NCBI RefSeq assembly: GCF_036429475.1
Contig: NZ_CP144125.1
Location: 3,241,521 to 3,305,520, forward strand
From: Halalkalicoccus sp. CGA53
GTDB lineage: Archaea > Halobacteriota > Halobacteria > Halobacteriales > Halalkalicoccaceae
Length of the DNA stretch: 64,000 nt
Direction of reading: 5' to 3'
The position numbers and the translations under genes were made by a program. Below are positions 5,053-22,708 of the stretch, piece after piece. The notes beneath the pieces were generated by a model that ran no database searches, was not told the origin of the DNA, and was given only the letters and a program-made list of their open reading frames with translations. The first letter of the stretch is position 1. The number at the start of each line of letters is the position of its first letter.

Positions 5053-5181
5053 ATGAACGTATTCAGCCACGTGTTGATCGAAGATATAATCGATTCTTAT
5101 CTACCTTCCAGGAGGTTAGGCCACTTCCCTGATGTAATCGGCCAAGAACTACACCAACTACACGAAATTCATAATGGGTGA
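5053..5181 (+). CDS. Possible 42-residue ORF coupled to the next gene
   Basis: ATG 5053 opens a 42-residue frame (MNVFSHVLIEDIIDSYLPS...). Its TGA overlaps the ATG of the nucleotidyltransferase-like gene by 8 bases (ATGGGTGA). It could be a small coupled gene, or the surviving tail of a gene cut away when mobile DNA arrived upstream. I see no known domain. Confidence 0.3.
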   Translation: MNVFSHVLIEDIIDSYLPSRRLGHFPDVIGQELHQLHEIHNG

Positions 5182-5998
5182 AAAAACGACGTCATCAACG
5201 GAATTCGAGAGCGGCCAGACACAAGAACCCCGAACATATCCAGTGACAAAGACGGAAATCACTCGAGAACTATTTGAATCGTTAAATGAGCTCAATCTGA
5301 CGTATGTTGTGGCTTCAAAGTACAAAAATTTACCCGAAACTATAATTGGTGACATCGACATCTATGTCGAGGATCAAGATTTCGATAAAGCAATCGAGAT
5401 CTGTAAAGGCTTGGGGCTTGAGAAGCGCCAATCCCTTCCAAAGCACATCTATCTTCTTAAAAAGGTGGTCAGAGACCCCTGGACTGCTTTTACCACCGTA
5501 TTTAATTCCCCTCGAAAGATCCAACATCTCATACGCAACGAACAGAAGCGGGCGACGGGTTCGGAATATTCGTACCATCGTAACCAAAAAATGGTGAACG
5601 ACGAACTGATGATCGACATCCGGAACAATCTCGCATACAAGTCTCTTCAGGACCGCACCCGTATTCCGGTGAAATCAAGCGTCACCAATCAATTCTTCAA
5701 GCGGCGACGCCCATATAATGGGTTCTATGTCCCCGCTCCCTGTGATGAACTCGCACATATAATCTCCCGTCAGGTCTTCGATAAGGACGGTGCTTTCTCT
5801 CATTACTACGTCAACCGGTGTGACGAGCTGGTCGAAACGCTGAGGAACGATCCGGAACAAAACAATCAATTCAGAGATTTACTCTGTGATATTTTCTACG
5901 ACACTGATAAACTCATATATGATCTAATAATTAGGAGGAAATACGATGTGATCCTTTCGGAGCTATATCGGAATAGAGCCACTGATGAAATTTCGTAG
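5174..5998 (+). CDS. Nucleotidyltransferase-fold-like protein of a glycan locus
   Basis: This is a 274-residue soluble protein. Near residues 57-71 it has IGDIDIYVEDQDFDK, a G-D-x-D pattern like the metal-binding site of the MNT/polymerase-beta-like nucleotidyltransferase fold. A preceding strand-helix unit (LNLTYVVASKYKNLP) fits the same fold. The rest is rich in Lys, Arg and Tyr and not assignable by eye. Proteins of this kind occur in archaeal surface-polysaccharide clusters, but the substrate is unknown. It is flanked by overlapping short frames upstream (to 5181) and downstream (from 5985). Codon use is AT-rich like its neighbours. The fold call is tentative. Confidence 0.6.
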   Translation: MGEKTTSSTEFESGQTQEPRTYPVTKTEITRELFESLNELNLTYVVASKYKNLPETIIGDIDIYVEDQDFDKAIEICKGLGLEKRQSLPKHIYLLKKVVRDPWTAFTTVFNSPRKIQHLIRNEQKRATGSEYSYHRNQKMVNDELMIDIRNNLAYKSLQDRTRIPVKSSVTNQFFKRRRPYNGFYVPAPCDELAHIISRQVFDKDGAFSHYYVNRCDELVETLRNDPEQNNQFRDLLCDIFYDTDKLIYDLIIRRKYDVILSELYRNRATDEIS

Positions 5999-6389: not shown

Positions 6390-7280
6390 ATGATAGAAGT
6401 ATTCAAACACAAGACTGAGAAACCGTCATTGGGGCAAATCGGTTATAAAACGCTGAAAAATAAAGGGATATATCACTTTATATACGTAGTATTTAAATTT
6501 ATTTTTTCTAAGATGGACGAAGCGATGCTCTCTCATTTTCCCATTTATCACGGTCTAAGGGTTAGCTATTACGAGTACAAAACAATCTTGACGAGCGATT
6601 ACGATGCACCTCTTAACCCATATAAAATCGAATGGGTGGATCCAGACGATATAAACGAGTTTACTAGAAGAAATGTGAGGCCCGTACAAAGTTGTGGATT
6701 GATCAAAAACGGTAATTGGGATAGACGAGACGATTACGTATATTCCGAAGGGTATGGAAAGAGATATTGGCATAACCGTGCCAGAAATGGTATCTATTTC
6801 GAGGATTCACTGTTCTATCAAGCACTGAAGAACCATTTCGACCACGGTATTGATTGGAAAGAGACAGAATACTTTCAAGCTGCAAGCAAGGCATTCGAAA
6901 TCGGTGAAAAAATTAGTAACGGGTATACCTCTGAGCAGGAATTGTTATTAGATTTCAAACGTACTGATGAACTGTACCACGAAATTAAGAATAACGGTTA
7001 TAAAACACGTGCCGATGTCAATAAATGGCACGATTACGACAGGGGTGTGATGACATTTAAGAAATTAAAGAAGTCCGAGATTACTGTGGATATCGGTAGA
7101 AATGGAAAATTGTTGTTCGCATCTAGTGGTAAACATCGCTTGGCTATAGCCAAAATTTTGGGTTTAGATGAGATCCCTGTTATATTTATTTGTAGACATA
7201 GAAATTGGATGAACCATCGTGATTATATATATCGTAATGAGTTGAAGGTTTACCATCCTGATTTAAGTGAATTTCAATAA
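6390..7280 (+). CDS. ParB/Srx-like protein of the glycan island, paralogue 1
   Basis: This 296-residue protein shares its whole architecture with those at 9246-10100, 19227-19988 and 18593-19237. Early there is YKIEWVDPDDI (about 80-90), then NGNWDR. The middle has FDHGIDW and a helix with YHEIKNNGY. Near 228-262 is ITVDIGRNGKLLF followed by GKHRLAIAKILGLDEIPV. The last block looks like the G-x-H-R nucleotide-binding motif of the ParB/sulfiredoxin fold, whose members include CTP-binding ParB and ATP-dependent serine kinases. It ends RHRNW...YHPDL. No helix-turn-helix is visible, so DNA partitioning is unlikely. A GGTGA at 6382-6386 could be a ribosome-binding site. The exact reaction is unknown. 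Confidence 0.7.
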   Translation: MIEVFKHKTEKPSLGQIGYKTLKNKGIYHFIYVVFKFIFSKMDEAMLSHFPIYHGLRVSYYEYKTILTSDYDAPLNPYKIEWVDPDDINEFTRRNVRPVQSCGLIKNGNWDRRDDYVYSEGYGKRYWHNRARNGIYFEDSLFYQALKNHFDHGIDWKETEYFQAASKAFEIGEKISNGYTSEQELLLDFKRTDELYHEIKNNGYKTRADVNKWHDYDRGVMTFKKLKKSEITVDIGRNGKLLFASSGKHRLAIAKILGLDEIPVIFICRHRNWMNHRDYIYRNELKVYHPDLSEFQ

Positions 7281-7336
7281 TATATAGTTATATAAATATA
7301 TAATAATAAATTAAAGTAAAATGTAGATATTAATAT

Positions 7337-8039
7337 TTATTTAAATATATGGGGATTATTAAATAGAATAAAAAAGACGGGGCCAAGGCAGTCTCCAGCT
7401 GGTCGAAATAGTCCGATGAGTGAACGTTCGAGTCCTGTATTAGAAGTAAACGGCCACTCTTGGGGGCAGCGTGAATATAAGCAGGTGTTCCAGAACCAGC
7501 TTAACGGATGGAACGAGTGATTTGTCATTGTTATCTTCTTCCCGGAAAACGATGCGTAGAACGTGTCGATCCAACGTTTCAGCTCCTGAAGCCACCGCCC
7601 GATCTGATTTCTAAGTCAGTGCGGGATCACTACCTGGCGAATACAGACCCGCCGGATGGTGGCTCCGTATTCGCGTATCCCCTCGATAATCACCGTCCTC
7701 GGCAGCTCGCTGTACAATTGCTCGAACTCCGCGAAGAATAAGCGTGTCGTGAGATAGCTTTTCGATGGATACGCCGTGAGATGGACCGCCACCCATCTCT
7801 CCGGATCGACCGTCGCAAACAGCACGAACCGCTGACCACCCTGGCGAATCATCGTCTCATCGACCAGAATTCGACCGAGAAGCTGCGTGACAGGCCGGCG
7901 ACCCGTCGCGGAGAGTCGACTTCCGAAACGTACGATCCACCGCCAAATCGGCACGTGCGAGCACTCGATCTTGCCTTCTTCTTGAACCCCCTCCCCCTGA
8001 TTCTTTGGAGATGCACTAATAGACCCACTAGCGGCCGCT
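7337..8039 (-). pseudogene. Decayed IS6-like DDE transposase
   Basis: Read on the minus strand, 7954-7619 encodes LGRILVDETMIRQGGQRF, then ATVDPERWVAVHLTAYPS, a first-Asp catalytic region with the usual downstream strands. An in-frame TGA at 7616-7618 follows. The same frame then continues as LRNQIGRWLQELKRWIDTFY and TNHSFHPLSWFWNTC, matching the C-terminus of IS6-like transposases. The N-terminal part beyond 7954 is frameshifted. No clear inverted repeats were found, and the IS630 element abuts its upstream side. Bases 7281-7370 are extremely AT-rich and show no gene. Confidence 0.65.
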
Positions 8040-9139
8040 TCTGACCGTTAGGATTGAATGCTAGTTTTCGATGGCAGAGCCCGCAGAAGAGCCATGAGTA
8101 ATCGGCGAGCATATCTCGAGCGGCATCTATCCGACGAGGAATTACACGACGCGATCAAGAAGGCGGACGATCGACGTGTCGTCCGCCGTCTCTGTTTCGT
8201 GCGGAATCTCTACGCAGGCGATACAATCGAAGAAGCTGCCTGGCGTGTCGGAGCGACCCAAGGAATCGGCAGTCAGTGGCTTCAACGATGGAACGAAAAC
8301 GCCCAAAATGGATTGATCCCGGGCTTCGGGGGCGGCCAGCCCCAGAAGCTCTCCCTCCAACAAGCACGAGATTTCCAACGCCTCCTCGAAGACGGCCAAC
8401 CCTGGACAACTGCCGAAATCAAACAGCTGATCGAAGACGAGTTCGGAATCAGCTATCATTCTGGCTCTATCCAGCGACTGCTCCGTAACACCTACCGTAT
8501 GTCCTACGCGATTCCACGTCCAGAGACGCCGTCCCGACCGGAGAATGCAGAAGAACTGCTCTCCGAGCGCCTCTTCCAGGCGCTCGGCGAGACAGCAGAT
8601 GACTCTCTCGAGGAGGCCGCTGATCCCGGCTATATTGGGCTTCTTTCGACGCGTCGTGGCCGATGCTGACGGATAATAAGCATCGAGTCTGGGCGTTCGG
8701 CACGCCCAGACTCGTCAAACAGATGCCGCAGGTGAAAACCGCCGCTGTTGGCTTCTAACCCGTGAACGGAACGAGCGTGCTCCGATCACTAGAGTCGTTG
8801 CATAAAGAGCGGATCGGCGAGGTGTTCGAGACGATCCGCGAGCAGAATCCGACCGGTCGGATTCTACTCGTCTTGGACAATTTCTCCTCGCACACGTGTA
8901 CCTACACACGTGAGAAGGCCGAAGAACTCGGTATCTCGCCGGTGTTTCTTCCAGTTGCCTCGCCGCATCTCCAACCAATCGAGCCGGTCTGGAACAGCCT
9001 GAAACGGTATCTCTCCCCGATATCGACCGAGAGCGCGGACGAGTTCCGCGCTCTCGTCGAAGCAACGTTCCTCGAACTGACACAGCGACTCAGCTCCTTC
9101 ATCGACATCAATCGCTTGTGCTAGACCCTAACGGTCAGA
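8040..9139 (+). mobile_element. IS630-family element
   Basis: The inverted repeat TCTGACCGTTAGG at 8040-8052 matches the reverse complement of 9127-9139 (CCTAACGGTCAGA) perfectly over 13 bases. The 1.1-kb length and the enclosed transposase fit IS630. The expected TA target duplication is not obvious at either edge, so the exact outer boundary may be off by a few bases. The transposase is broken. Confidence 0.8.
8094..9124 (+). pseudogene. IS630-family transposase with frameshift and internal stop
   Basis: The N-terminal half (MSNRRAYLERHLSDEELH...) carries a helix-turn-helix-like segment (TIEEAAWRVGATQGIGSQWL). A frameshift near 8630 ends it. The downstream frame reads DNKHRVWAFGTPRLVKQMPQ and then meets TAA at 8757-8759. 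It resumes as MNGTSVLRSLESLHKERIGE (from about 8762). This part holds the second and third catalytic residues, in LLVLDNFSSHT and HLQPIEPVWNSLKRYL. Perfect hairpins lie at 8162-8187 (9 bp), 8684-8714 (13 bp) and 9028-9056 (12 bp). Two lesions make it inactive. Confidence 0.85.
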
Positions 9140-9210
9140 GTGGTACCGAATGTTCAATACTGAAAGTCGTTGAATTAGATAGTACCTATTACGGACAATA
9201 TGTGGCTACC

Positions 9211-9220
9211 TTTATATTTT
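9211..9220 (+). promoter_or_regulatory. TATA box of the ParB-like paralogue 2
   Basis: TTTATATTTT is centred about 30 bases before ATG 9246. This is the spacing expected for an archaeal TATA box giving a leaderless or nearly leaderless mRNA. It decides the ATG over an in-frame TTG at 9219. Confidence 0.6.
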
Positions 9221-9245
9221 GAGTGGACATATACAGGCACAAAGT

Positions 9246-10100
9246 ATGGGGAGAGTTAACACAGCCATCCGTCTTGGTCAACACGGTGGGGTAAAACCAC
9301 TTCTTGATGAGACGGCCAAATACATCCATGAAGAGATTGTTAAAAAAGTTATCCGTCTACTATCCCGACTTGACGATCCTCGCCCGCTATATCGCAAGTA
9401 TGTGGCCTTCAGGCGCCGGCTTCAGCCACAAAAATTCACCGATGCGGACCCATTCAAGATCATCTGGGTAGATCCATCGGAAATCGAGTACGGCGAGAAA
9501 ACTACAACAGGGTATGGATGGGGGCGTGTTGAAGATGGCAATTGGGACCGATCCACCGAACTAATTGAAGGACTAGAGGGTATCACCGCCCATTTCAAAC
9601 ACGGCGTGCCCTGGACCGAAACGCAGCGATTCCAAAAAAAGGTAAATCGAATTCGGCGTGGGAAGACATCAAAAGGATGTGCAAGTGCTGAAGAGCTCGA
9701 AGCAAGGTATAAAGAGATCGATAAACTGTACGAGACGATCCGAAAAAATGGGTACCAGCCCCAACGCACAATCATTAAGGAAAATCCTTTAAAACACTCC
9801 CACTTGTTTTATAAATCGGGAGAAATTTTGCATCCTGAATTGGACGAAGTCAAAGTAACAATCGGCCGTGATGGTCAAATCTTACACAGACACGATGGTA
9901 GACACCGTCTCGCTATCGCGAAGTTATTAGATATTGAATCAATTCCGGTAGTTGTTAGGACACGCCACCTCCATTGGCAGGAGGTACGAGACGATTATGT
10001 TAACAAAATGAAGGGTAAAAGAGATAATTCTGATCGTTTCTCTCTTTATAAATGCCATCCCGATTTATACGATATTACCCAAGGTTCGACGGAGAAATAA
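9246..10100 (+). CDS. ParB/Srx-like protein of the glycan island, paralogue 2
   Basis: From ATG 9246 this encodes 284 residues. It repeats the family plan: FKIIWVDPSEIEYG, then EDGNWDR, ITAHFKHGVPWTETQRF, IDKLYETIRKNGYQP, VKVTIGRDGQILHRHDGRHR and LAIAKLLDIESIPVVV, then RTRHLHWQ, ending with a HPDLYDI tail like paralogue 1. The G-R-H-R block is the presumed nucleotide-binding motif of the ParB/sulfiredoxin fold. The decayed IS630 and IS6-like elements separate it from paralogue 1, so the pair may have been adjacent before the insertions. The substrate is unknown. A role in glycan modification is inferred from context. Confidence 0.7.
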   Translation: MGRVNTAIRLGQHGGVKPLLDETAKYIHEEIVKKVIRLLSRLDDPRPLYRKYVAFRRRLQPQKFTDADPFKIIWVDPSEIEYGEKTTTGYGWGRVEDGNWDRSTELIEGLEGITAHFKHGVPWTETQRFQKKVNRIRRGKTSKGCASAEELEARYKEIDKLYETIRKNGYQPQRTIIKENPLKHSHLFYKSGEILHPELDEVKVTIGRDGQILHRHDGRHRLAIAKLLDIESIPVVVRTRHLHWQEVRDDYVNKMKGKRDNSDRFSLYKCHPDLYDITQGSTEK

Positions 10101-10193
10101 TTACGTGAATTATTTTTTCAACCGATATTCGCTTCTCTACATGGTTTGCCCACAAGACACATATATTGAAATGGATATTCGAAAGGTGAACGT

Positions 10194-10397
10194 ATGGAGC
10201 CAATTAATAGCTTACAGACACAGCATCAGACCCTTCATTCGCGATTTAGGTACAACGATCGGCAATTAGAACACAGGGATCAAAATATAAGCGGTAGCAT
10301 CCGATTTCGTTCTTCACGAAATTGTTTGATAGTGAAGGGACCATTAAGAGCGTTTAGCGAACACATCCGGTGTAACTTAAAGAGTAATAGGGAATAA
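10194..10397 (+). CDS. Possible 67-residue ORF before the beta-helix gene
   Basis: ATG 10194 has a GGTGA five bases upstream (10185-10189) and a TATA-like CATATATTG at about 10161-10169. The frame stops two bases before the ATG of the beta-helix gene, so the two would be coupled. The peptide is basic and shows no domain. It may instead be the 5' leader of the next gene. Confidence 0.35.
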   Translation: MEPINSLQTQHQTLHSRFRYNDRQLEHRDQNISGSIRFRSSRNCLIVKGPLRAFSEHIRCNLKSNRE

Positions 10398-10399
10398 CT

Positions 10400-12940
10400 A
10401 TGAGTGACGAAACCGAACACAAGGGTTACAACAAACCTGATCACGGCGAGCAGGATTGGCACAACCCCCTAAATGAAAACTTTGTTCTCATCGATAGCGA
10501 CATTCACGAAATCGAACAACTGATCGAGGAAAGCGGTGACATTGGGGCGACAGCAAAATTCGAGAAGTTCCTTCATGATCCGACTGAAGCACCGGTTAAG
10601 GGCCCGATCACTGAAGCGTTCAATGCCGGGTCACTGGATCACTATGGCGACGAATCTACTGATTTGGACCGGTGGAGTCTAGTCACCTCGGATATCGAGG
10701 GAGACCATATGCTTCGTTTCGATGCACCGGACGGCCTCTCCGACACCGAATCCTATCATCTTATCAGTGACGTTTCCGAGACCCATCGGGGATTTAGCTA
10801 CTCCGCGTACGTGCGTGGCGAGGACAACGGCTCGAGAGGCGAGTTCGGCTTCGCCGTTCTTACCTCGTTCTCCGACGGTACGATCACAGATGGATTCGTC
10901 CTCAGAATGAACCTCGATCGAGATTCGATTGAGATCATGGAGTATAGCGATGGGTTTGTCGGTGGGACGACCGCAGACGTCAACCTCTCGGCAGACACGC
11001 TTTACCGCCTTGAACTCGATGTCGAGTTCGATGGTCGACTCATCGGCCGGATCTATGACACCGACGACAACGCATTGCAGGACTTGATCGTTGATCCAGA
11101 GCAGTCCGATGTCCACAACGGCGGCTTCGGCTGGTACGCTCGCGTCGGATCGGAGGATGAATGGGCCGAATATGACTTCCTGACAAAACAACCACTCGCA
11201 TCGACACCCGCCCGCGTGAGCGGGACGTCATCGAACGGCGGCGGGTCGATCGAAGGGACGGCCGCTCTCTCAACGGATATTTTGGTTTACGAGGATAACC
11301 CAGGAGAGTACGTTGTCCTCGATGATAGTGGTGATATAGTGCATAGCGGGTCGAACGCAGTAACAGCGCTCCAACAGGGTATCGACGCAACGCCGACACG
11401 AGGCACGATCTGCGTCCGGGGCCACTATAACCTCGATGATGAGATAGAAATCACTGACTATAAACATCTCATCGGCTACGGCGCGCACTTCGAGTGCACG
11501 ATGTCGAGCGACCCGCATATACAGTGCGTGGCTGGGACGGCCTCCTCAGGAATCGAAGTCACCGACATAGATTTCGGAGAAGAAGAGATACTCACACTGG
11601 AATCAACTAGTGGGATGGAGCCGGGCGATCTCTTAGAGTTTTACTCTGACGAGGAGATCGATCGGATCGGAACGGGCGACGAGCGTCCGCTGGGCGAACT
11701 GCATAAAATCCAGTCCGTTGATAGTGACCCCTTTTACGGTATCGCATCTGGCGAAGTCCTGTTGATGGACACAATGGAATGGGAGTATGACACATCCTAC
11801 GACATCCACGTCAATCATATCCCAGCCGATAGCGTCACGATAGAGGGGCTTCGGATGACCGGCCCGGAACCGCGCGAGAACTACCGAGCAATTCGTTGCC
11901 GGCAGCTCGAAAATCCCGTTATTGAATCCGTCGATCTGGAGACGTTCGGCGGTCGGGGCGTTATGATGGATAGGTCATATATGGGCGAGGTTCGGAACTC
12001 CCGGTTTTCGGATATGCGCGAACAGGGCGCTGGCTATGGCGTTTCGGTTCAGTACGGCTCGGCGCATACGAAGATCCACAACTGTCGGTTTTACGAGAAT
12101 CGTCACGGTGTCGCTCACGTCTCCGGTGGATCTAATTCGATGAACCGCCGGACGCACGTCTCCAATTGTCGGTTCCTTCGCGGACAGAGTTCGCAAATCG
12201 ACACCCACGGCGACGAGTGGAACTGTCGAATAAGCGATTGTATGTTCTCGCAACCGCGTAACTTTGCCATCCATACCGGAGCGCGCGAGATCGTCATCGA
12301 CGGCTGTGAGTTTTACTGCGGTGGGTCTGCTGGCCTCACTTCGGACCGTGGCGAGTGGGTCGATCAACGCATCATCTTCATCAACAACAAAGTCATTCGA
12401 GGTTCGCGGAACTGGCTCATGCGACTCGACGATGATGGTTACGACCTCATCAAGGTCCATAACAACGAGTTCTTTGACATCTCCGTCCCCGTTCTTCGCC
12501 CGACGACGAGCGAAAACATCGACCATATTCACTTCACTGACAACTTTATCAAGGGTATTAACAACCAAGTTCTGCATCTAGGGAACCTATCTGATGGGAA
12601 AATAGGCGAAGTGACAGTTTCGGGCAACTACTCGGAAAACTGCAACTCGACCATGTACCGATTCAGAAATATAAGAAACTTAAGGTTCACGAATAATGAG
12701 ATGGCCACACAGAGTGGCTTCAATTATATGATCGAACTCGAATCGGTTTCGGATTCGTTCATTGCGAACAACGTATTCAGAGACCATGGGAACAAGGGAG
12801 GGATCGAACTAAACGACGCTGAAGATTTCCAGAGCGAGAATAACGTCATCATGGGCAACGTTGGATATGATTTAGGTGACGATGTTATCGAGAATTCGTC
12901 GGCCGGTTCCCACGAGATCCTCAATAATTTCAATTTCTAG
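10400..12940 (+). CDS. Right-handed parallel beta-helix protein, tailspike-like
   Basis: This is an 846-residue acidic protein. The N-terminal EQDWHNPLNENFVLIDSDI (about 15-33) resembles the N-terminal motif of many phage tail-fibre and haloarchaeal surface proteins. Residues 75-255 look like a concanavalin/LamG-type beta-sandwich (RFDAPDGL, YSAYVRGE, DFLTKQP). A Ser/Gly linker (SGTSSNGGGS) follows. From about 300 to 840 there are irregular rungs of the pectate-lyase type with Asn and His stacks (IHNCRFYENRHG, VSNCRFLRG, ISDCMFSQ, IDGCEFYCG, FINNKVIRG, VHNNEFFD, FTNNEMATQ). It probably binds or cleaves a polysaccharide. No signal peptide, Tat motif or membrane anchor is visible, which is odd for a surface role. 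Confidence 0.75.
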   Translation: MSDETEHKGYNKPDHGEQDWHNPLNENFVLIDSDIHEIEQLIEESGDIGATAKFEKFLHDPTEAPVKGPITEAFNAGSLDHYGDESTDLDRWSLVTSDIEGDHMLRFDAPDGLSDTESYHLISDVSETHRGFSYSAYVRGEDNGSRGEFGFAVLTSFSDGTITDGFVLRMNLDRDSIEIMEYSDGFVGGTTADVNLSADTLYRLELDVEFDGRLIGRIYDTDDNALQDLIVDPEQSDVHNGGFGWYARVGSEDEWAEYDFLTKQPLASTPARVSGTSSNGGGSIEGTAALSTDILVYEDNPGEYVVLDDSGDIVHSGSNAVTALQQGIDATPTRGTICVRGHYNLDDEIEITDYKHLIGYGAHFECTMSSDPHIQCVAGTASSGIEVTDIDFGEEEILTLESTSGMEPGDLLEFYSDEEIDRIGTGDERPLGELHKIQSVDSDPFYGIASGEVLLMDTMEWEYDTSYDIHVNHIPADSVTIEGLRMTGPEPRENYRAIRCRQLENPVIESVDLETFGGRGVMMDRSYMGEVRNSRFSDMREQGAGYGVSVQYGSAHTKIHNCRFYENRHGVAHVSGGSNSMNRRTHVSNCRFLRGQSSQIDTHGDEWNCRISDCMFSQPRNFAIHTGAREIVIDGCEFYCGGSAGLTSDRGEWVDQRIIFINNKVIRGSRNWLMRLDDDGYDLIKVHNNEFFDISVPVLRPTTSENIDHIHFTDNFIKGINNQVLHLGNLSDGKIGEVTVSGNYSENCNSTMYRFRNIRNLRFTNNEMATQSGFNYMIELESVSDSFIANNVFRDHGNKGGIELNDAEDFQSENNVIMGNVGYDLGDDVIENSSAGSHEILNNFNF

Positions 12941-13625
12941 CTTCTAAGTTCGATATTCGTCGGATTTTTAGAATTGGCCATACTCTCAGAAATATTATGT
13001 AGGGCGCGCCAAATTCTACGGTTAAATACCCCTTCTCTACCCATGAGGAGAAAGTCGCGACTTTTTGGCCGGATCTTCTACAAGGACCACTTACTAATGG
13101 CTGACAATAAATTTAACGATCGGCCTACCATCGTATGATATTATCTTAATTTTCCCAACTAGAAATCATAGGGCTTATATCGGTTATTGGGATGTCATGT
13201 ATATGTATCATTGGTGTTTGGTTAAGCACAGGATGGCCTCGTGAAGGCACCAGCCACTCATTCATTGAGAAATTGGCGTGATTTCTCTGTTGACGAGCGT
13301 CACATGAGAGTGAGAAGAGTTCGGGTATCACAACCTCTCCCACGCAGTCTACCACGATAACTTTGTCAACAGAGCGAAGATTCTTGGTTCCTCCACTTAA
13401 CCGAACATCGATAGATATATAACCTTTGATATATGTCCCAATATGATTTGTATCCAAGACGTATTAGGCACATCCATCAAAGTGAGGTATCGATGTGTAT
13501 TGGACACGAGAACGTTTACAAAGCTTGAAAACCAATGTCTTATTAAAGTGGCCTAGTGAACCGATGAAAGTTGATAATTTAGAACTAAGCGGGATTAAAC
13601 AAAATTGAGAAGACACTACACAACA
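12941..13625. other. AT-rich intergenic region
   Basis: About 685 bases with no convincing gene. A 103-codon minus-strand frame at 13146-13457 has no recognisable family. Several short AT-rich stretches just before 13626 could hold the promoter of the glycosyltransferase. No repeats were recognised. Confidence 0.5.
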
Positions 13626-14573
13626 ATGTTAAACCATACTGTTAGTGTTATATTACCAACATACAATCGACCAGAACGCTTGCGATGCTCCGTTAAAAGC
13701 GTTCATAACCAAACCATCGATAATATTGAGTTAATCATCGTTGATGATCACTCTACACCATCGGCTAAAGAAGCGATTTCAGATGTTGATCTTAGTAGTA
13801 TTTCAGATATAGTTTACTTGAGGCATGATCGAAATATGGGACAGAACGTCGCAAGAAACACCGGAATCAAGGAAGCAGGGGGAGAGTTCATCGCCCTCTT
13901 GGACGATGATGATATTTGGTTAGAAGAGAAGCTGGAGCGACAACTAAATACGTTTCAACAATCAGATGATAAAGTTGGGGTCGTATTTACCGGGCATAAG
14001 CAAGTAAACGAACAGGGGGAAATCATAGGCTATAGTTCGTCCGACGCAAGCGGTGATCTAACCGAATATATACTCTCCGGTGGAGAACTATCGCCGACAT
14101 CGGGTATCATGGCCCGGATGGAGGCAGTTGAGAAGGGGGGACTATTTGATGAGAACTGTCCGCTTTACACAGATAAGGACTGGCTTCTCCAGCTATCTAC
14201 CTCTTGCACCTTCGAATCCATTCCTGATCCGCTTTTTATTAGACGAATAGGATCGCCAGATCGCATTAGTAATAACTTCGAAATGAAACGTGATGTCGCG
14301 ATTCCATACTGGATCGAGAAATACCGATCAATGGCTAGAGACCACGGTTGGGTCTGTGAGCGAAGGTTTATGTCCCAGATGATGTTTCATGTTGGTAGAT
14401 CAGGTGTGAAATACAAATATTTTTCTGACGCCAGGAAATACCTCTTTAAATCAATTCTTTACTATCCATTTCGTTTGGGACCTTATCTGTACTTTACAGT
14501 AGCACTATGCGGACCAAAGGGATACAGGCTAGGAATGAAGTACAAAAAGCTAGCTCTAAAACTAAATAAATAA
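13626..14573 (+). CDS. Family 2 glycosyltransferase
   Basis: A 315-residue GT-A enzyme starting at ATG 13626 (an in-frame TTG at 13605 seems less likely). It opens with HTVSVILPTYNRPERLRCSV, followed by ELIIVDDHSTPS. Then come the N-x-G-x-N-x-A-R motif in NMGQNVARNTGI, and FIALLDDDDIWLEEKL with the metal-binding D-x-D. Acceptor-side residues YTDKDWLLQLS follow near 180. The C-terminus is basic and amphipathic, probably membrane-associated. It would transfer a sugar from a nucleotide donor to a lipid-linked glycan. The gene stands alone between AT-rich spacers. Confidence 0.88.
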   Translation: MLNHTVSVILPTYNRPERLRCSVKSVHNQTIDNIELIIVDDHSTPSAKEAISDVDLSSISDIVYLRHDRNMGQNVARNTGIKEAGGEFIALLDDDDIWLEEKLERQLNTFQQSDDKVGVVFTGHKQVNEQGEIIGYSSSDASGDLTEYILSGGELSPTSGIMARMEAVEKGGLFDENCPLYTDKDWLLQLSTSCTFESIPDPLFIRRIGSPDRISNNFEMKRDVAIPYWIEKYRSMARDHGWVCERRFMSQMMFHVGRSGVKYKYFSDARKYLFKSILYYPFRLGPYLYFTVALCGPKGYRLGMKYKKLALKLNK

Positions 14574-15396
14574 ATTGAATACGCAGAATGATTATTATTC
14601 TATAAAAAAGTATTGATGTTGTCGATCCCTTATCAATATATAAATATTCTTACTCTCAGAAGTGATGAGAAATGCCAACCAAATAAATGGAGCGGTTGAA
14701 ATTTGTTTAGTATGAACACTTCACAAAAGCGTTAATTGAGGCGTTCACTTGCTGTGAAAGCGATAATCGGACCCGTCCTTGAGCAGACGGCATCAACAGA
14801 ATATCATGTTTGCTTTTGTGACGGAGATTGTTGGTAAGTCATAGCGCGATTTCGAGGATGGTTTTAATGCTTCTATCCCTAGTCTTCGTAGAAGCGGCGG
14901 CGGAGGTGAAAGGCTCAGAGGTATGGTGTGGATTCATCCTTTGAGATACCTCATAAAGTAAGAGCCAGGATCGCACCAGCTGGTCATGGCTCTTGCAGGT
15001 ACTCAGTGGACGTCTCCATCAACGTACTCGTCGTCACAATGGACGACCTATTCACCGGTACGCTTATCCGTAGAAGATTGTTGATACAGTTCGGTTCGTT
15101 CCTGACTGAGCCGAGGTTTGGATGTAGAGCGGTTCGTAGCCCATAGCTCAACTCTTGGCACTTAGCGGAAAATCGCAAGACTGCGCTCCATCAATCATGT
15201 GCTACGCAAGAGCGTCACCGGTAAAAGCGTGTCCTCATCCAGAGGTTCTCCGCGCGACGCTACGAGACACCTACTTGAATAGAACATCGTTCGTCGGGTG
15301 GCGTGTTCGCGTCACCCATGCCCGCTGTGACTTCCATCTACTGCAATAGTTGACCCAATCCTCAATCTAAGAGCGTTTTCCCTACGAACACATCAC
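14574..15396. other. Gene-poor spacer containing MITE copy B
   Basis: No convincing gene lies here. MITE copy B occupies 15061-15214. Around it, short open stretches such as 14928-15060 and 15224-15349 lack start signals and known motifs. They may be debris of an older gene or element. Confidence 0.5.
15061..15214. mobile_element. 154-bp MITE, copy B
   Basis: It has the same length as the copy at 4855-5008 and is clearly homologous along its length, including GTTGATACAGTTCGGTTC and AATCGCAAGACTGCGCTCCA. The exact 9-bp duplication TCACCGGTA flanks it at 15052-15060 and 15215-15223. Its left inverted repeat is more worn (CGCTTATCCGTAGAA) than the right (TGCTACGCAAGAGCG). Confidence 0.88.
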
Positions 15397-16164
15397 TTAT
15401 GATTGGTTTCTAGCCAGCGAGTTTAGTTCCCGTATAAGTGTTAGTTTTGTATTAGAAAGTGAGCCGGTATTATCAATCCTGACAACCGTTAATCCACGTT
15501 CTTCAGCCAGTTTTCCAACTGTTGAAACACACTTGGCCATAGTTGCAAACCGCTTTTTCCGCGAGTATTCCGAAAGCTTCTTCATGCTACTCGGTAGCCC
15601 CTCGGGTCGTCTCCGCGCCCTCTGATATCCTACCTCAGGTCTGACATCAACATGTACCAAGATCCTCGGCAAAGGGACCACGTTCATGTATTGGTCGACC
15701 AACCGCTTCTCAGGTTCATCGTTTCTACGTGAGAACATCGAAACCGCACCCATCGCGAATCCTTCATCAAAGACAATTGATGAGTCCTCGTCTTTGATAG
15801 CACCATAATGCACAGCTCTTCTGATCAACAATCGACGAACGCGGTCATGGTCGTCAACCTCGATTTCTTCTATGATTTGTTCGACAGTCTGTGCGAAATC
15901 CGGGTACTCAGTTGCGAAATTGTGGTATGAGTATACAGGCCTATTTCGGAGTCGTGGATATGCACGTAGAACATTTCTTCCAATTTTCCCTGGCAAACGT
16001 AAAAGCAATGGCATGATATTCTTCGCGGGTCCATCCATTACCGACTCAAAATAAACGTCCCTTGCGGCGCGTGCGTCTGGAATATTCCGAACTGCGGTTT
16101 TCGCGAGCGTTGATTTTCCGCTCCCAGAGATACCAATGAACTCGTAGTTGGAAGGGGAGGTCAT
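15397..16164 (-). CDS. P-loop kinase-like protein
   Basis: A 255-residue protein with a textbook Walker A loop at residues 11-19 (GISGSGKST) right after a first beta-strand, FIGI. SIVFDEGFAMG near 129-139 is Walker-B-like. A basic patch, YQRARRRPEGLPSSMKKL near 185-202, could be the LID of a small-molecule kinase. The size fits nucleoside or metabolite kinases rather than AAA+ machines. Similar proteins accompany archaeal and bacterial capsule genes, but the substrate is unknown. It lies 215 bases downstream of the membrane glycosyltransferase-like gene on the same strand. Confidence 0.65.
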   Translation of the reverse strand: MTSPSNYEFIGISGSGKSTLAKTAVRNIPDARAARDVYFESVMDGPAKNIMPLLLRLPGKIGRNVLRAYPRLRNRPVYSYHNFATEYPDFAQTVEQIIEEIEVDDHDRVRRLLIRRAVHYGAIKDEDSSIVFDEGFAMGAVSMFSRRNDEPEKRLVDQYMNVVPLPRILVHVDVRPEVGYQRARRRPEGLPSSMKKLSEYSRKKRFATMAKCVSTVGKLAEERGLTVVRIDNTGSLSNTKLTLIRELNSLARNQS

Positions 16165-16379
16165 GACGATGTTGTTTTGTTACGTGATATAAATCAGTTT
16201 GCTTCTTCAGAACCACTTTACTATTCATAGTTAAACAATATTGGACGTCAGCTCCTTTGTAGTTTTAGCTTTTTTTAGGGTATTTGTACAATATGTTACC
16301 TACAGGATGGTAGATTTTTATTACAAATTAACCCATTTTTTTCATAGGACTTTTCTAAATTGATAAGGTAATTTATTAA

Positions 16380-18293
16380 CTATTCGTTCGAGGACTCACG
16401 ATTCTCAATCGCATAAAGGTTGAACCCACCGTTGTCCTGCACACGGTTAATACCTGGCTCTTGTTCCAGATAGTCTAAGTCCTCATCTGACCAACGGAGG
16501 CCGTTTATCACTTGGGTTTCATATATACGGTCTCTTTCCTTCACGTATAAGTATGCATATTCGCCATAAAAACCATGTAGGTCTCGTTGGTTCTCTATTT
16601 CGTCCGCACGTGACTCATCATTCGCAAAGTGATCAGGGACATTTTCTCTTCTGTAATCATCTTCGTAAGACCGATCAGTGTCATAGCCTCGTAAAACCGC
16701 ATCCTGATACCGATACAGGTTCCTACGCATTGTGGTGTGTAGGGCTTCTTCATCCGCTATTTTAAGGGCGATGCTGTGGCCTTCTAAAGTCTGTTCTGGC
16801 ACATGGTGTGAATCTTGATATATGTATGGCGAACCATATATAACCGGGACAGTCATTGATAAACATATTATTATGAAAATAATCGCAATCGGTTTTGTTT
16901 TGTCCACGGAGAACCGAGAAGCCAGAAATTTCAGTATTTGACCAACGGCGAGAGCACCCATGATCGTCACCATCGCCATAAGAAACCCATAGTGGCGCAT
17001 ATACTGGTCAGATAGGCTGCCTAAAATATAAACGAAAAACAGAGCCGACGTGACAAAGAATCCAAATGTCCAAAAAGCAAAGACGAGATTAGTAGCCCTT
17101 GATTTAAAAGAAATCGGCTGGACGAGCGATTGCAATCTTTCAAACCGAGTGAAGAACGTAGTAGTAACGCTAGCACCCATCAAGAGGGCACAGATTGCAC
17201 AGTAAATTACGCTAATAAGAAATAATTTAATGAATATCTCTTCTATGGTGCCGCCAATTGCCTCAAGCGAAACTCCCCTTGTTTGAACGCTAGCCGCTGT
17301 TTCCGTATCGATAAACATAGAACCGATCATGCGGCTGAAGTTCCGCTCAAAGCGTTCGGCGATGATCGCCTGAGACCAAATCCAAAAGAATATGACAATG
17401 AGACTTGCGTGTATGTAAATCGGCATCACAGTCCCAGTCGTGGACAACTCGGTACGCCAGAAAGTGGCGTAGAGGAGGTGCGCGCCCGCAATTCCGAGGA
17501 ATAAAAGAATGAGGCTGGCGGCATGCTGCGGATGCAGAACCACCATAGAAAATGAAACCAATATTAACAGTAGCGAAGTCCGATGATCCTGCTCCAGCAT
17601 CACGAAAATCAAAAGGAAGAGAGCTAGCGTGACGTACAAAATCGCTTGGGCGGATGGTTGGGGTTCTACCCGACCCTGAATGTGATTTATAGGGAGAAGC
17701 AACATTCCCGAGAATAGGGCCATTCCGAGAATCCAACGATCATTGGAGAATAACCGAGCCGTCAATACTGAAAATATAATAAAAGTGAGCACAAAAGCCG
17801 GTACGACGATAAGGAATGTCCTGTTGAGTTCGACTCCGGTAGCCCCACTCAGGAACACTGTAACAGTGTGAATGAACGGATACTGCGAGTTGGTTATCTC
17901 GTTAACACCATACGCAAACTCCCGAGTGGCTCCTAAGTGTGAGAGGGCGTCGCTCTCCGCTTGGTAGTACCAACCGCGAATTCGTGGGAGCATTACTATA
18001 CTCATGAATGACAACAGTCCAAGAACATACGATGCGCTTCGGATGGGACGCTTGCTTGCTGAAAAAGCAACGACGGTTGCGATGACTAGCGCTGCCATAA
18101 TCGAGATCCAGTACGAAAACGGGGTCCCTTCTACATTGTGAACTGTACCATATATCGATACTTCGTACCCCGCTGCCGGATTAAGATGAGCTATTAAAAT
18201 AGCCGCGGAGGTGAAGATGAAGCCTACTGTGAGAAGAATTCCATGGATTTCAGCTTGGGAAACGGAGAACCGAGTCCGTTTTTTATATTTCAT
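16380..18293 (-). CDS. Polytopic membrane protein, GT-C glycosyltransferase-like
   Basis: A 637-residue protein with about 11-12 predicted membrane helices. A long first loop contains YYQAESDALSHLGATREFA, where the acidic residues resemble the catalytic loop of GT-C enzymes using lipid-linked sugars. A soluble C-terminal domain of about 130 residues ends the protein. Another loop carries HIQGRVEPQPSAQ. Archaeal glycan clusters often contain such proteins as dolichol-phosphate-sugar-dependent transferases or polymerases. An AT-rich stretch just upstream on the minus strand (18294-18330) contains TATA-like sequence. The remaining bases to 18592 show no gene. The exact role is inferred. Confidence 0.7.
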   Translation of the reverse strand: MKYKKRTRFSVSQAEIHGILLTVGFIFTSAAILIAHLNPAAGYEVSIYGTVHNVEGTPFSYWISIMAALVIATVVAFSASKRPIRSASYVLGLLSFMSIVMLPRIRGWYYQAESDALSHLGATREFAYGVNEITNSQYPFIHTVTVFLSGATGVELNRTFLIVVPAFVLTFIIFSVLTARLFSNDRWILGMALFSGMLLLPINHIQGRVEPQPSAQAILYVTLALFLLIFVMLEQDHRTSLLLILVSFSMVVLHPQHAASLILLFLGIAGAHLLYATFWRTELSTTGTVMPIYIHASLIVIFFWIWSQAIIAERFERNFSRMIGSMFIDTETAASVQTRGVSLEAIGGTIEEIFIKLFLISVIYCAICALLMGASVTTTFFTRFERLQSLVQPISFKSRATNLVFAFWTFGFFVTSALFFVYILGSLSDQYMRHYGFLMAMVTIMGALAVGQILKFLASRFSVDKTKPIAIIFIIICLSMTVPVIYGSPYIYQDSHHVPEQTLEGHSIALKIADEEALHTTMRRNLYRYQDAVLRGYDTDRSYEDDYRRENVPDHFANDESRADEIENQRDLHGFYGEYAYLYVKERDRIYETQVINGLRWSDEDLDYLEQEPGINRVQDNGGFNLYAIENRESSNE

Positions 18294-18592
18294 AATTTAT
18301 TATAATTATATATTGGTAGTAATATGAAATAATTCACTGTACCACCATTCTCAAAGATGATCATTCCTCAAGTCGCAAAGTATCGTCTGAGAATAAAAAC
18401 ATAGCGGTTATATTCCCAGCATGAGGTTCTATCAAAGTGACCCAGTCTGTCATTCAGGTCAGTGTGAGACGCAATCACTCTCCCAAACTAAAAATGTTCT
18501 ACACCAAATATTCTTGAGTAGACTTTCACTCATTACTCTGGCTCATCTTTATCAGTCGTAACATTTAGTTGTGAGTATTATACGATATTTAA

Positions 18593-19237
18593 TTATGTTG
18601 GTATCGAACGAATCGGTTCCGGTATTTTCTTCGTTGCTTGAGGGTGATAGAGGGAAAGAACAACCGGTATCTCTTCAATTCCCAGTACCTGAGAGATCGC
18701 GAGCCGATGGCGACCTCCTCTGAGGTGAATCAAACGCCCCTTTCGGTCCATACCGACGATAATTTCGTCGGGAATCGTTGCAGACCCGATCTCATGACGG
18801 CCATCATTCAGGGGTGATTCGGAGCGGTAAAGCTCTGATTGGTAGCCGTGATTGTGGATCGATTCTATCAGCTCTTCGATTTCTGAGCACCGACTTTCGA
18901 ACCTCTGCTGGTCATCGCTCTTGGCGAACAGCGGCGTTTCGTCCCATGCACTATCGTTTTTGAGTACAGTTTCGATGGACCGGTAGACGTAGTGGCGACT
19001 GAAGCTCATTTTAAACCGGTCCCAAGGACCTCCCGCCGCCCCCCGGACTGCATCGCTTCCAAAGAGTGGAAAGGCATTCGGCGGGATTAATTTAATGTAA
19101 TCAATATCGATGGGATCCACCTCTATGACGAAAATTCGATTAGACGGGTTTCGCTTTGAGGATAAACGAGTGTACCTCGTCACCGGCCAGAGTACTAAAG
19201 ACGAGTAGCCGAACATTGCGTATTGTCTAAGACTCAT
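18593..19237 (-). CDS. ParB/Srx-like protein of the glycan island, paralogue 4 (shortened)
   Basis: A 214-residue, more diverged family member. It keeps FVIEVDPIDIDYI, a GGPWDRF equivalent of the N-W-D motif and a helix with IEELIESIHNHGYQSE. It also keeps IIVGMDRKGRLIHLRGGRHR and LAISQVLGIEEIPVVL. It lacks the W-x-x-x-R and HPDL tail of the others. Its start overlaps the end of paralogue 3 by 11 bases, so the two are co-transcribed and probably coupled. The adjacency suggests a tandem duplication that diverged, or a heteromeric pair. Confidence 0.65.
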   Translation of the reverse strand: MSLRQYAMFGYSSLVLWPVTRYTRLSSKRNPSNRIFVIEVDPIDIDYIKLIPPNAFPLFGSDAVRGAAGGPWDRFKMSFSRHYVYRSIETVLKNDSAWDETPLFAKSDDQQRFESRCSEIEELIESIHNHGYQSELYRSESPLNDGRHEIGSATIPDEIIVGMDRKGRLIHLRGGRHRLAISQVLGIEEIPVVLSLYHPQATKKIPEPIRSIPT

Positions 19238-19988
19238 TTACGAACTCCAAGTCCGGGTGATTGCCCACGCGAGCCCCTTGTCTCGCTTTTTCACGCGTCC
19301 GCTGCCACTCACGGTGTCTAACGGCTACCCGGACGGGTATCGAGTCGAGATGCAGGATTTTTGCGATCGATAATCTATGTTTGCCGTCAAAAAACAATAA
19401 CCTGCCGTCACGGCCGATATCGACGGTTACCTCGTCTTTTTTGAGATGTGTGAATCTGCGCAAGAGCCGGTACAGACGTGTTTGTTTTACCGCCCCCTTA
19501 TTTTTGAGTTGTTCTTCCTGTGTGAGGTAAGCGCCACTTTCGATTGCAGCGTAGAGGTCGTCGAGTTCGTTACACTTGTTCCGAACTTCAACGACACTAC
19601 CACAACCCCATGCGGAAGTCCCATTATCAATGAGAGCCATGACCTCCCCGATGAATGGCGTAGATTCCCATGGTATTCCATTGACAAAATGCGCTTCCAA
19701 GGATGGATAGATCGGCTTTTGAACGTTATCGTAGAACGTAGCGGATTCAAACGCTAGCGATTTTTTGTCCCAGTCACCTTCCTTTACGGTTCCTGCGGCC
19801 TCCCATTTCTGAAATGGTCGAAGTGAACAATATTGAATGTCTCCCGGATTGACCCAAATAATACTGAATATTTCCGCGTCTGTATAGTTGTTCGACAAGT
19901 GGGATAAGGCTTTGATATAATATGGATCTGAAGGCGGGTAATATTTTATCGAGGTAGCGAGGAACTTCGCTGCATTAAACAAATTCAT
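19227..19988 (-). CDS. ParB/Srx-like protein of the glycan island, paralogue 3
   Basis: A 253-residue protein. Conserved blocks are FSIIWVNPGDIQYCSLRPF near residue 40, then VKEGDWDKKSLAF, LEAHFVNGIPWESTPF and LDDLYAAIESGAY. After these come VTVDIGRDGRLLFFDGKHRL and SIAKILHLDSIPVRVAVRHR, and it ends HPDLEFV as paralogues 1 and 2 do. The G-K-H-R motif is the presumed nucleotide contact. The gene overlaps its upstream neighbour by 4 bases (ATGA) and its downstream paralogue by 11. The three therefore form one translational unit. Confidence 0.7.
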   Translation of the reverse strand: MNLFNAAKFLATSIKYYPPSDPYYIKALSHLSNNYTDAEIFSIIWVNPGDIQYCSLRPFQKWEAAGTVKEGDWDKKSLAFESATFYDNVQKPIYPSLEAHFVNGIPWESTPFIGEVMALIDNGTSAWGCGSVVEVRNKCNELDDLYAAIESGAYLTQEEQLKNKGAVKQTRLYRLLRRFTHLKKDEVTVDIGRDGRLLFFDGKHRLSIAKILHLDSIPVRVAVRHREWQRTREKARQGARVGNHPDLEFVNES

Positions 19989-20345: not shown

Positions 20346-21437
20346 TTACGAATCGACTCCTAGACAGCTACCGTATAGGGATTTGTGTTGAGCACCGATT
20401 TGTTCGATGGTGAACTTACTCATCGCGTGCTGAAAGGCGTTTTCGCCCACCCGATTTAGATCCTCGTTTAACATTGTTTCGATACACCGAGCAAGGGCTT
20501 CATAATCCCCGACTGGATAGAGATAGCCCGTTTCTCCGTTCGTTATGACCTCCGTCACCCCAGCTATTTCGGTCGATACGATCGGAAGTTTCGCCGCGCT
20601 TGCCTCGACGTGGGTCGTCGGAAGTCCCTCGTTCTCGGATGAGGAGACGAAGACGTCCGCTACGGAGAAATACGGTTCGATTGCTTCGACGTAACCCGTA
20701 ACGGTAATACACTCCTCTAGGCTTTGTTCTGTGACTCTCTTCTCGATCTCTTGCCGGCAAGGACCATCGCCAACGATGTAGAGATGGACTTCGTCGTCAA
20801 TAAATCGCATCGCCTCCACCAGATCCTGTTGGCGCTTTTGCTTGACGCAGCGAGCCACGTTCAGTAGGATTCGCTCCCCGTCGTGTTGTGCTTCCAGATC
20901 TGTCGTATCGGCAGCCTCTACACGCTCGCAAAATCCCTTGACATCAATCGCGTTGTAGATTACTGTCATTCGGTTCGAATCCGGATACGACTCGCGAACG
21001 CCCTTCGAGACGCAAACGATCCGATCCGAAAGTCTACCTGTCACCCGTTCAGCAAGGCGTTTCGGCCTTGTTTTGTGATCTCGAACGTTGTGATACGTTG
21101 CTACTTGAGGGATACGAATCCGAGCACACGCCAGCCGACCGACAACATGCGAGAAGGGCAGGTGGGAGTGTAGCAAATCGATCTCCCGATCCTTCAGAAC
21201 GCGAGAGAGTCGCCACGTGGCGCGAGGAATCGACATCGTCGAAACGCTGGTCCCGAGGGAAACAACATCGATATCGCTTTCCTCGAGATCGGAGAACAAC
21301 TCGCCGGTTGGGTTCGCGACGATCACGATCGGCTCAATGCCCTCGTATCCCTGCATTTCGATTGCCAGGTCCTTTACTAGACGCTCTGCCCCACCGGACC
21401 GAAGATCGTTGATCAAGAACGCCAGCTGAAGTGTCAT
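20346..21437 (-). CDS. Family 4 glycosyltransferase
   Basis: A 363-residue GT-B enzyme. The N-terminal Rossmann half has the glycine-rich acceptor loop INDLRSGGAERLVKDLA at about 9-25, and later LLHSHLPFSHVVG. The C-terminal half has NVARCVKQKRQQDLVEAM, LYIVGDGPCRQEIE and VTGYVEAIEPYFSVADVFV. The E-x7-E donor site is at SSSENEGLPTTHVEASAAKL, near 272-291. It is a retaining transferase using a nucleotide sugar. It overlaps the upstream GT4 gene by 4 bases (ATGA), so the two act in one operon. Confidence 0.92.
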   Translation of the reverse strand: MTLQLAFLINDLRSGGAERLVKDLAIEMQGYEGIEPIVIVANPTGELFSDLEESDIDVVSLGTSVSTMSIPRATWRLSRVLKDREIDLLHSHLPFSHVVGRLACARIRIPQVATYHNVRDHKTRPKRLAERVTGRLSDRIVCVSKGVRESYPDSNRMTVIYNAIDVKGFCERVEAADTTDLEAQHDGERILLNVARCVKQKRQQDLVEAMRFIDDEVHLYIVGDGPCRQEIEKRVTEQSLEECITVTGYVEAIEPYFSVADVFVSSSENEGLPTTHVEASAAKLPIVSTEIAGVTEVITNGETGYLYPVGDYEALARCIETMLNEDLNRVGENAFQHAMSKFTIEQIGAQHKSLYGSCLGVDS

Positions 21438-22708
21438 ACTGATCCACCATCTTTAATTGACTCAGGGATAGAAACGCTGCGGAAAACCTCCTTGTACGTT
21501 TCAGCACATCGTTCCCAGTCCAGACGCTCGGCCGAGTCGAGCGCACCCTCCTCGAGATCCTGACGTAGCTCCGGTTCACTGATCAGCTGTCTCATTCGTT
21601 TCGCGATCGCACCGGCGTCTTTCTGCGGAACGACATACCCGTTTTCGCCCTGTTTGACGACGTCTGGGATCCCACCAACTTCTGTGCCAATGACCGGGTT
21701 GCCGGACGCGAAAGCCTCGGCGATGACCGTCGGCATTCCTTCCGTGTCTCCCGACTCCGCTTCTATCGATGGAACGACTACGAAATCGGCCATGATGTAC
21801 TGTTCGATGAGCTCTTTTTCGCTGACCCATCCTTTGAATGTGACGTAGCCGTTGAGGTCGAGTTTGTCAGCGTAATTGTGTAGCTCCTCTTGGAGCGGCC
21901 CCCTGCCCACGATCGAGAGGTGGAAATTATCTACTTCCGGGCTGACAATGGTCATAGCATCAAGCAAATAATCAACGCCTTTCTTTTCAGCTAGTCGTCC
22001 GACAAATAACCCCTGAATCTCGCCATCAACGCCGGTATCAACCCGTAGCTCCGATTTCGAGGAAACGTCATACTCGTTAACATGGGCACCCATCGGTTGA
22101 ATCTGAAATTGCCCATCAACAGGAACGGTGCCGCCTCCGATTTCTAAGAAACAATCTCTGATATGTGTGCTGACGGGAAGAATCATATCTGACCGCTGGT
22201 AGACGTAGTTAACGATCAGCCACCCAAACGGTACTTTTTGTAATACGAGAACACCCCTGGCGTGTAAAGTTAGGACATGTGGAATACCCAGTACTGACGT
22301 TATAAAAGCCCCGATCAGTCCATTCGGGAGCAACCAGTGTGAGTTCACAACATCGACGTTTTCCTTCCTGATGACCCAAATTGTATGGAGTAGCAACGAT
22401 AATATAAATATAGGGGCTTGAAATATCGCCAGCAGATTGGTCTTCATCGATGGAACGATTCCTCCCTTTCCTTGGAAGGCCAGTCTCTGATATCGAAATG
22501 GGACGAAGTACGGAAATCGATAAACAATTATACCCGAAATCGTTTCTTTTCGTCTTGCTCCAGGATAGTGTGGTGCAAGTACGACAATGTTCAAGTTATC
22601 ACTTTGAAGTGCCTTCGTCAATTCAAACATAAACTGTGGAACTGTGTCCCCCTCCCAGCGGAGAAAGGTCGTTGCTAGTACCAGTACGGTCAGTTGTTCA
22701 TTACGCAT
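21434..22708 (-). CDS. Family 4 glycosyltransferase
   Basis: A 424-residue GT-B enzyme beginning LTVLVLATTFLRWEGDTVPQ. It has a putative membrane-associating hydrophobic stretch near 95-112 (LLAIFQAPIFILSLLLHTIW). DVVNSHWLLPNGLIGAF and TLHARGVLVLQ follow. The C-terminal nucleotide-sugar domain has LFVGRLAEKKGVDYLLDAM, LSIVGRGPLQEEL and the E-x7-E site in EGMPTVIAEAFASGNPVIG. It is the first of the coupled GT4 pair and would add a sugar to a lipid-linked intermediate. Confidence 0.92.
   Translation of the reverse strand: MRNEQLTVLVLATTFLRWEGDTVPQFMFELTKALQSDNLNIVVLAPHYPGARRKETISGIIVYRFPYFVPFRYQRLAFQGKGGIVPSMKTNLLAIFQAPIFILSLLLHTIWVIRKENVDVVNSHWLLPNGLIGAFITSVLGIPHVLTLHARGVLVLQKVPFGWLIVNYVYQRSDMILPVSTHIRDCFLEIGGGTVPVDGQFQIQPMGAHVNEYDVSSKSELRVDTGVDGEIQGLFVGRLAEKKGVDYLLDAMTIVSPEVDNFHLSIVGRGPLQEELHNYADKLDLNGYVTFKGWVSEKELIEQYIMADFVVVPSIEAESGDTEGMPTVIAEAFASGNPVIGTEVGGIPDVVKQGENGYVVPQKDAGAIAKRMRQLISEPELRQDLEEGALDSAERLDWERCAETYKEVFRSVSIPESIKDGGSV

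Follow-up and report, generated by a model that had tools for sequence, protein, structure and literature searches.

The ParB/sulfiredoxin (Srx) fold is increasingly recognised as a general NTP-binding module. Its characterised members without a helix-turn-helix (HTH) are the kinases SerK and SbnI and the ATP-using sulfiredoxin (PMC12704722; PMC5120207): SbnI of Staphylococcus is an ATP-dependent free serine kinase (PMC12704722), SerK of Thermococcus is an ADP-dependent serine kinase (PMC5120207), and sulfiredoxin, in the summary that PMC12704722 gives of its reference 54, applies the fold with ATP to the reduction of cysteine sulfinate. An archaeal SerK-like protein bound CTP when tested (PMC12704722), and the fold therefore does not fix the chemistry. 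A survey of the ParB-CTPase fold beyond chromosome segregation (PMC12704722, PNAS 2025) used PF02195 and TIGR00180 at curated cut-offs; the families it describes include archaeal members without an HTH and share the predicted fold of the family reported here, which falls below those cut-offs. Archaeal glycan and lipid pathways, where this family would probably act, have been worked out only in part (PMC8305020, for headgroups).

Four paralogues in a low-GC island

The window, a 64,000-nucleotide stretch of the Halalkalicoccus sp. CGA53 genome, encodes four members of the family, which are numbered below along with the genes around them.

2117-3316 and 3536-4351: two transposase ORFs
5174-5998, + strand: nucleotidyltransferase-like protein (weak PF14907 match), 391 bp before member 1
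6390-7280, + strand: family member 1, 296 aa, ParB/Srx-like, every core motif present
9246-10100, + strand: family member 2, 284 aa; alternative ORF start possible at 9219 (TTG)
13605-14573, + strand: family 2 glycosyltransferase
15397-16164, - strand: P-loop kinase-like protein; a homologue adjoins a family member in locus L103
18593-19237, - strand: family member 3, 214 aa, diverged and probably degenerate; C-terminal RHxxW, R232 and HPD block lost
19227-19988, - strand: family member 4, 253 aa, residue-numbering reference for the family
19374-19385, - strand: residues 202-205 (GKHR) of member 4, which align with ParB GERR and SbnI DGVHR; proposed P motif for phosphate binding
19767-19778, - strand: GDWD of member 4 (residues 71-74), with D74, acidic in 99% of 109 members, as proposed catalytic residue
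19985-20293, - strand: 102-aa sulfatase/AlkP-superfamily remnant, no functional partner
20346-21437, - strand: family 4/1 glycosyltransferase
21434-22708, - strand: family 4/1 glycosyltransferase
22739-23920, - strand: ATP-grasp protein
23975-25240, - strand: GNAT-like protein (weak match)
25504-26343, - strand: polysaccharide deacetylase
26336-27430, - strand: family 2 glycosyltransferase

The ORFs of all four members were confirmed at exactly these coordinates, and an alignment of the four proteins contained 29 invariant columns in the same order, in agreement with the original observation that they share an ordered set of motifs. Members 2 to 4 are 26-33% identical to member 1. A search of the genome with member 1 recovered the other three window copies at E 2e-26 to 2e-7, so their similarity is not due to chance, and it also found at least three further copies (C2:2439055, 3506142 and 3508239-3509299). 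The final R-H-x-x-W block holds for three of the four proteins, because member 3 has YHPQA in its place, together with EVDP for WVDP, MDRKG for IGRDG and no terminal HPD. Phylogenetic analysis placed members 2, 3 and 4 in separate, well-supported groups with proteins from other genomes and member 1 with copies from its own genome and others, in a tree with long branches and unsettled bootstrap values; being spread in this way, the window copies are, within the limits of that tree, not recent duplicates.

Members 3 and 4 had been proposed to be coupled to each other and to a 102-residue partner. The genes do overlap, members 3 and 4 by 11 bp and member 4 and the 102-aa ORF by 4 bp, but the supposed partner is, judged by its sequence, a decayed gene remnant. 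It is homologous to the C-terminus of a sulfatase/AlkP-like family (E 1.5e-31 after iteration), only the C-terminal part of that domain is left, and the metal-site DHG reads DDG. The homology begins upstream of its GTG start, at EAY, directly after an in-frame stop. Given the truncation, the altered metal site and the stop, we rejected it as a functional partner.

The first 24 kb of the window have a GC content of 42-57%, compared with mostly 54-65% for the rest and 66-68% for two other stretches of the chromosome. Together with the transposase ORFs, this low GC content fits an acquired island. A second cluster in the same genome (L134, C2:3506100-3510000) contains one intact member plus members in fragments or split over frames.

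Family distribution

At the order level, members were found in 119 of 342 genomes and 50 of 89 genera (E 1e-3 or better), while a phylum-level sample at E 1e-6 yielded 24 of 345 genomes, three of them outside the order; among Gemmatimonadota, two of 298 genomes had a member. Genomes often carry several copies. Sixteen plasmid records also encoded members, annotated as hypothetical or not at all; all 16 were haloarchaeal and none bacterial, and no relatives were seen in viral and phage collections. The family is highly diverged, with a median pairwise identity of 31% among 109 members.

Searches of single proteins against Pfam, NCBIfam and PHROGs returned nothing significant, and a literature search, whose coverage excluded most subscription journals, turned up no account of a family of this kind. 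By sequence comparison this is an undescribed family without a Pfam or NCBIfam model. Roughly one in three of the sampled haloarchaeal genomes has it, and it is tied to surface-glycan synthesis and missed by the models of the PMC12704722 survey.

Evidence for a ParB/Srx-like fold

Several lines of evidence, none decisive by itself, make a ParB/sulfiredoxin fold likely though unproven, as had been suggested from the motifs. Profile-profile comparison (hhalign) of the family with ParB_N gave E 6.5e-5 and a probability of 64%, with the match extending over a strand and the GxxR helix; controls gave 0.017 for a reversed profile, 0.075 for the best of 20 shuffles and 0.008 for the best of 31 unrelated neighbour families, the last being a hit restricted to the N-terminal portion of GT61 proteins. 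When a profile of 84 members was searched against PDB sequences, SbnI appeared weakly (E 0.13), behind unrelated chains that aligned over other regions (0.014 and 0.059), with the family GxHRLAIAKLLxLxxIPV opposite DGVHRFMSLKALGCEVIPV. The alignment of GxHR with ParB GERR and SbnI DGVHR fits the idea that this block resembles the nucleotide-binding loop of the fold.

AlphaFold models of two members, with five sequences underlying the models, had mean pLDDT values of 57 and 58, reaching 80-94 in the best blocks and falling below 50 in the GxWD region. Both showed the topology strand, helices, strand, strand, helix, strand, helix. Among the 50 PDB matches listed by Foldseek for each model, all were Srx, SbnI, ParB, Noc, KorB, PadC, SerK-type or Osa structures save 2hwj; SbnI-ADP was the top match for one model, SbnI (5ujd, 6nr6) had probabilities of 0.90-0.96 for both, and no match to either model had E <1e-3. 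Viral Foldseek matches that bore names were often ParB/sulfiredoxin.

The family differs from the ParB, Noc and KorB CTPases of the fold. None of the 84 members matched PF02195, even at E 0.1, the best TIGR00180 score among the four window proteins was 15 bits against a cut-off of 58, and no NPxQPR C-motif, HTH or partition context was seen in the family. The Pfam matches of the 84 members included no HTH family, which bears out the earlier remark that no DNA-binding HTH was visible. Sulfiredoxin resembles the family in the Foldseek match and in the placement of GxHR opposite GGCHR, but its motif cysteine is missing here, the helical region is longer and the context is different. The closest likeness is to SbnI and SerK, which share the predicted fold, a DGxHR-type phosphate helix and the lack of a DNA-binding domain, and which gave the best structural matches. 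Compared with them, the family has a longer stretch linking strand 1 to the helix that aligns next, with GxWD and FxxGxxWxxT in it, and conserved RHxxW and HPD motifs, and it occurs in glycan loci rather than in siderophore or serine metabolism.

Conserved residues and candidate active site

Three positions, G195, R205 and H225 (member 4 numbering), were invariant in all 109 members, and P48, G71, W73, D74, W107, T110, R193, G202, P218, V219, R224, W228, H244 and P245 were conserved in at least 91%. In the phosphate motif, G202 was found in 98%, H or N at position 204 in 99% and R205 in 100%; positions 193, 224 and 244 were basic in 94-97%. Near-invariant polar residues in a family of 31% median identity fit a conserved active site. 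The Srx cysteine position, 203, was Cys in none of the 109.

SerK (E30) and SbnI are reported to have a catalytic Glu after strand 1. Residues 49-57 of the family contain no conserved acidic column (35% at most), and the nearest invariant acid is D74 of GxWD, a candidate catalytic residue by conservation. It lies in the stretch from I51 to L142 (median 85 residues) that holds both GxWD and FxxGxxWxxT. The helix that follows, DxLY...GY, was placed opposite the ParB eL.SI..GL helix in one profile alignment, where some ParB rows had been extracted wrongly; with a cleaned set only the GxxR block aligned, so this equivalence is tentative.

A profile built from 44 member N-termini matched sulfatase-like proteins (6.7e-6, 1.8e-4) and one further protein (3.9e-5); GT61 and a methyltransferase-like protein scored 0.006-0.13, and the best reversed score was 0.32. 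This variable helical region may be a common placement module. Similar N-terminal regions precede glycan enzymes that are not related to the family, sulfatase-like and GT61 proteins among them, at L075:4026-5030, L086:8634-9641, L072:12574-13713 and L092:6287-7537.

Genomic context

The surface-glycan setting recognised in the window recurs in haloarchaea and, beyond them, in other archaea and in Gemmatimonadota. We found 154 genes of at least 150 aa lying no more than 700 bp from a member, and the 115 that were sampled included matches to flippase families (12), Glycos_transf_1 (7), GT61 (6), GT2 (5), Gfo/Idh (8), epimerases (4) and sulfatases (4). As a control, 114 genes were drawn, with slightly different ORF rules, from 20 arbitrarily chosen regions in member-holding genomes, and none of those glycan families recurred among them. 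Partition genes were absent from the neighbour clusters and Pfam counts, which held glycan genes instead, and no member was seen beside replication or partition genes in the neighbourhoods examined.

Outside the order, members adjoin a GT4 gene (L054, with a 4 bp overlap) and a GT2 gene in Gemmatimonadota, lie among glycosyltransferases and an ABC exporter (L217), are near an AglB-like protein (L213), or fall in a nonulosonic-acid-like cluster (L215) or a glycosyltransferase island (L212); some of these names come from BLAST to clusters or sequence reading. One member outside the order (L214) has no glycan neighbour.

Coupling to particular enzymes is lineage-specific. In one clade (support 100/99) a Gfo/Idh oxidoreductase is directly upstream of the member, and in another (support 100/95) a CDP-alcohol phosphatidyltransferase with an intact CDP-alcohol motif is adjacent in about 10 genomes. 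The latter gene is found in 156 of 332 genomes, usually away from the family.

Predicted function

The homology, the conserved residues, the glycan context and the lineage-specific coupling are established by computation, and on this basis we propose that these are NTP-dependent enzymes, most likely SbnI/SerK-like small-molecule or sugar kinases of surface-glycan or lipid-headgroup synthesis (probability roughly 0.4). Tentatively, and at somewhat less than even odds, they would constitute a new phosphotransferase family on the ParB/Srx fold, phosphorylating such building blocks in archaea and some bacteria. The kinase reading is favoured because the HTH-less SerK, SbnI and Srx use ATP or ADP, because of the glycan context, and because of the CDP-alcohol partner in one clade. 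Against it stand the absence of a PF02195 match, the low pLDDT, the lack of an acid after strand 1 and the usual location of the CDP-alcohol gene elsewhere.

In the proposed mechanism, the start of the GxHR (or GxNR) helix probably binds the nucleotide phosphates. The family-specific stretch leading from strand 1 to the DxLY helix would stand in for the ParB C-motif or SerK catalytic-loop region, bringing the invariant Asp of GxWD and the FxxGxxWxxT motif to the site, and an acidic substrate may be bound by the C-terminal block with RHxxWxxxR and HPD. An NTP or NDP would donate phosphate to a hydroxyl group on a building block such as a sugar, a polyol or an amino acid, and the product might then be used to modify glycans or, for one clade, a lipid headgroup, while the N-terminal helical region may hold members at the membrane with other glycan enzymes. 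If enzymatic, the family would extend the glycan and lipid pathways of archaea by one step and offer a compact set of testable residues; if the proposal is true, this would be a glycan-modification chemistry not yet described for the fold.

A kinase of a hydroxylated building block is tentatively ranked ahead of two other readings. In the first, which we regard as doubtful, the family is a nucleotide-gated switch or scaffold, in which binding of CTP, ATP or GTP reshapes the fold and so assembles or regulates membrane glycan enzymes with no metabolite being phosphorylated. ParB is a CTP switch and members of the fold bind CTP, ATP or GTP (PMC12704722), the N-terminal resemblance to neighbouring sulfatase-like and, weakly, GT61 proteins would fit a common assembly, and a separate adaptor for each pathway would agree with the presence of several copies in a genome; however, the ParB C-motif, clamp and dimer domains were not seen in the family, and the almost invariant polar residues that lie outside the P motif, in GxWD, RHxxW and HPD, look catalytic. 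Unlikely, in our judgement, is an ATP-dependent enzyme of another kind, one that activates a uronic acid or amino acid as an acyl phosphate or by nucleotidyl transfer before it is attached to glycan: asparagine-synthase-like, ATP-grasp and nucleotidyltransferase-like proteins do occur among the neighbours, but with some clades only, and the sulfiredoxin precedent for other ATP chemistry, as summarised in PMC12704722, is weakened by the absence of its cysteine. Regulation of the glycan island by DNA-binding or partition-type ParB relatives is highly improbable: the fold is the same and a ParB-type regulator of a biosynthetic cluster is known (EdeB, PMC9641203), but the family has neither a Pfam HTH nor a PF02195 match, no parA-like neighbour was noticed, and members are spread across many unrelated glycan loci.

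Other gene associations

Several neighbours of family members were considered as partners. Sulfatase-like genes are near members in several loci, but the sulfatase-like family occurs in 156 of 195 genomes and a wider search found a member alongside in one of 30 loci, and we rejected them as specific partners. The P-loop kinase was likewise rejected as a constant partner: the sampled loci contained just two further homologues, and of these one was adjacent to a member. Five of six homologues of the nucleotidyltransferase-like neighbour lie within 1.6 kb of a member, a weak count because the loci were chosen for holding one.

On a plasmid of Natrononativus amylolyticus (L159), a member has an AAA family ATPase as its neighbour, and the region contains no glycan genes. 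Two loci (L068, L092) place a member beside an asparagine-synthase-like amidotransferase, GT61 and a flippase. Members adjoin a CDP-alcohol phosphatidyltransferase, some with a 4 bp overlap, in L066, L069, L080, L094, L124, L219, L221, L223 and L238, and several of the CDP-alcohol loci add genes for a membrane protein of ~123 aa and for alcohol-dehydrogenase-like, PTPS-like and GT4-like proteins, the last names having been assigned by sequence reading.
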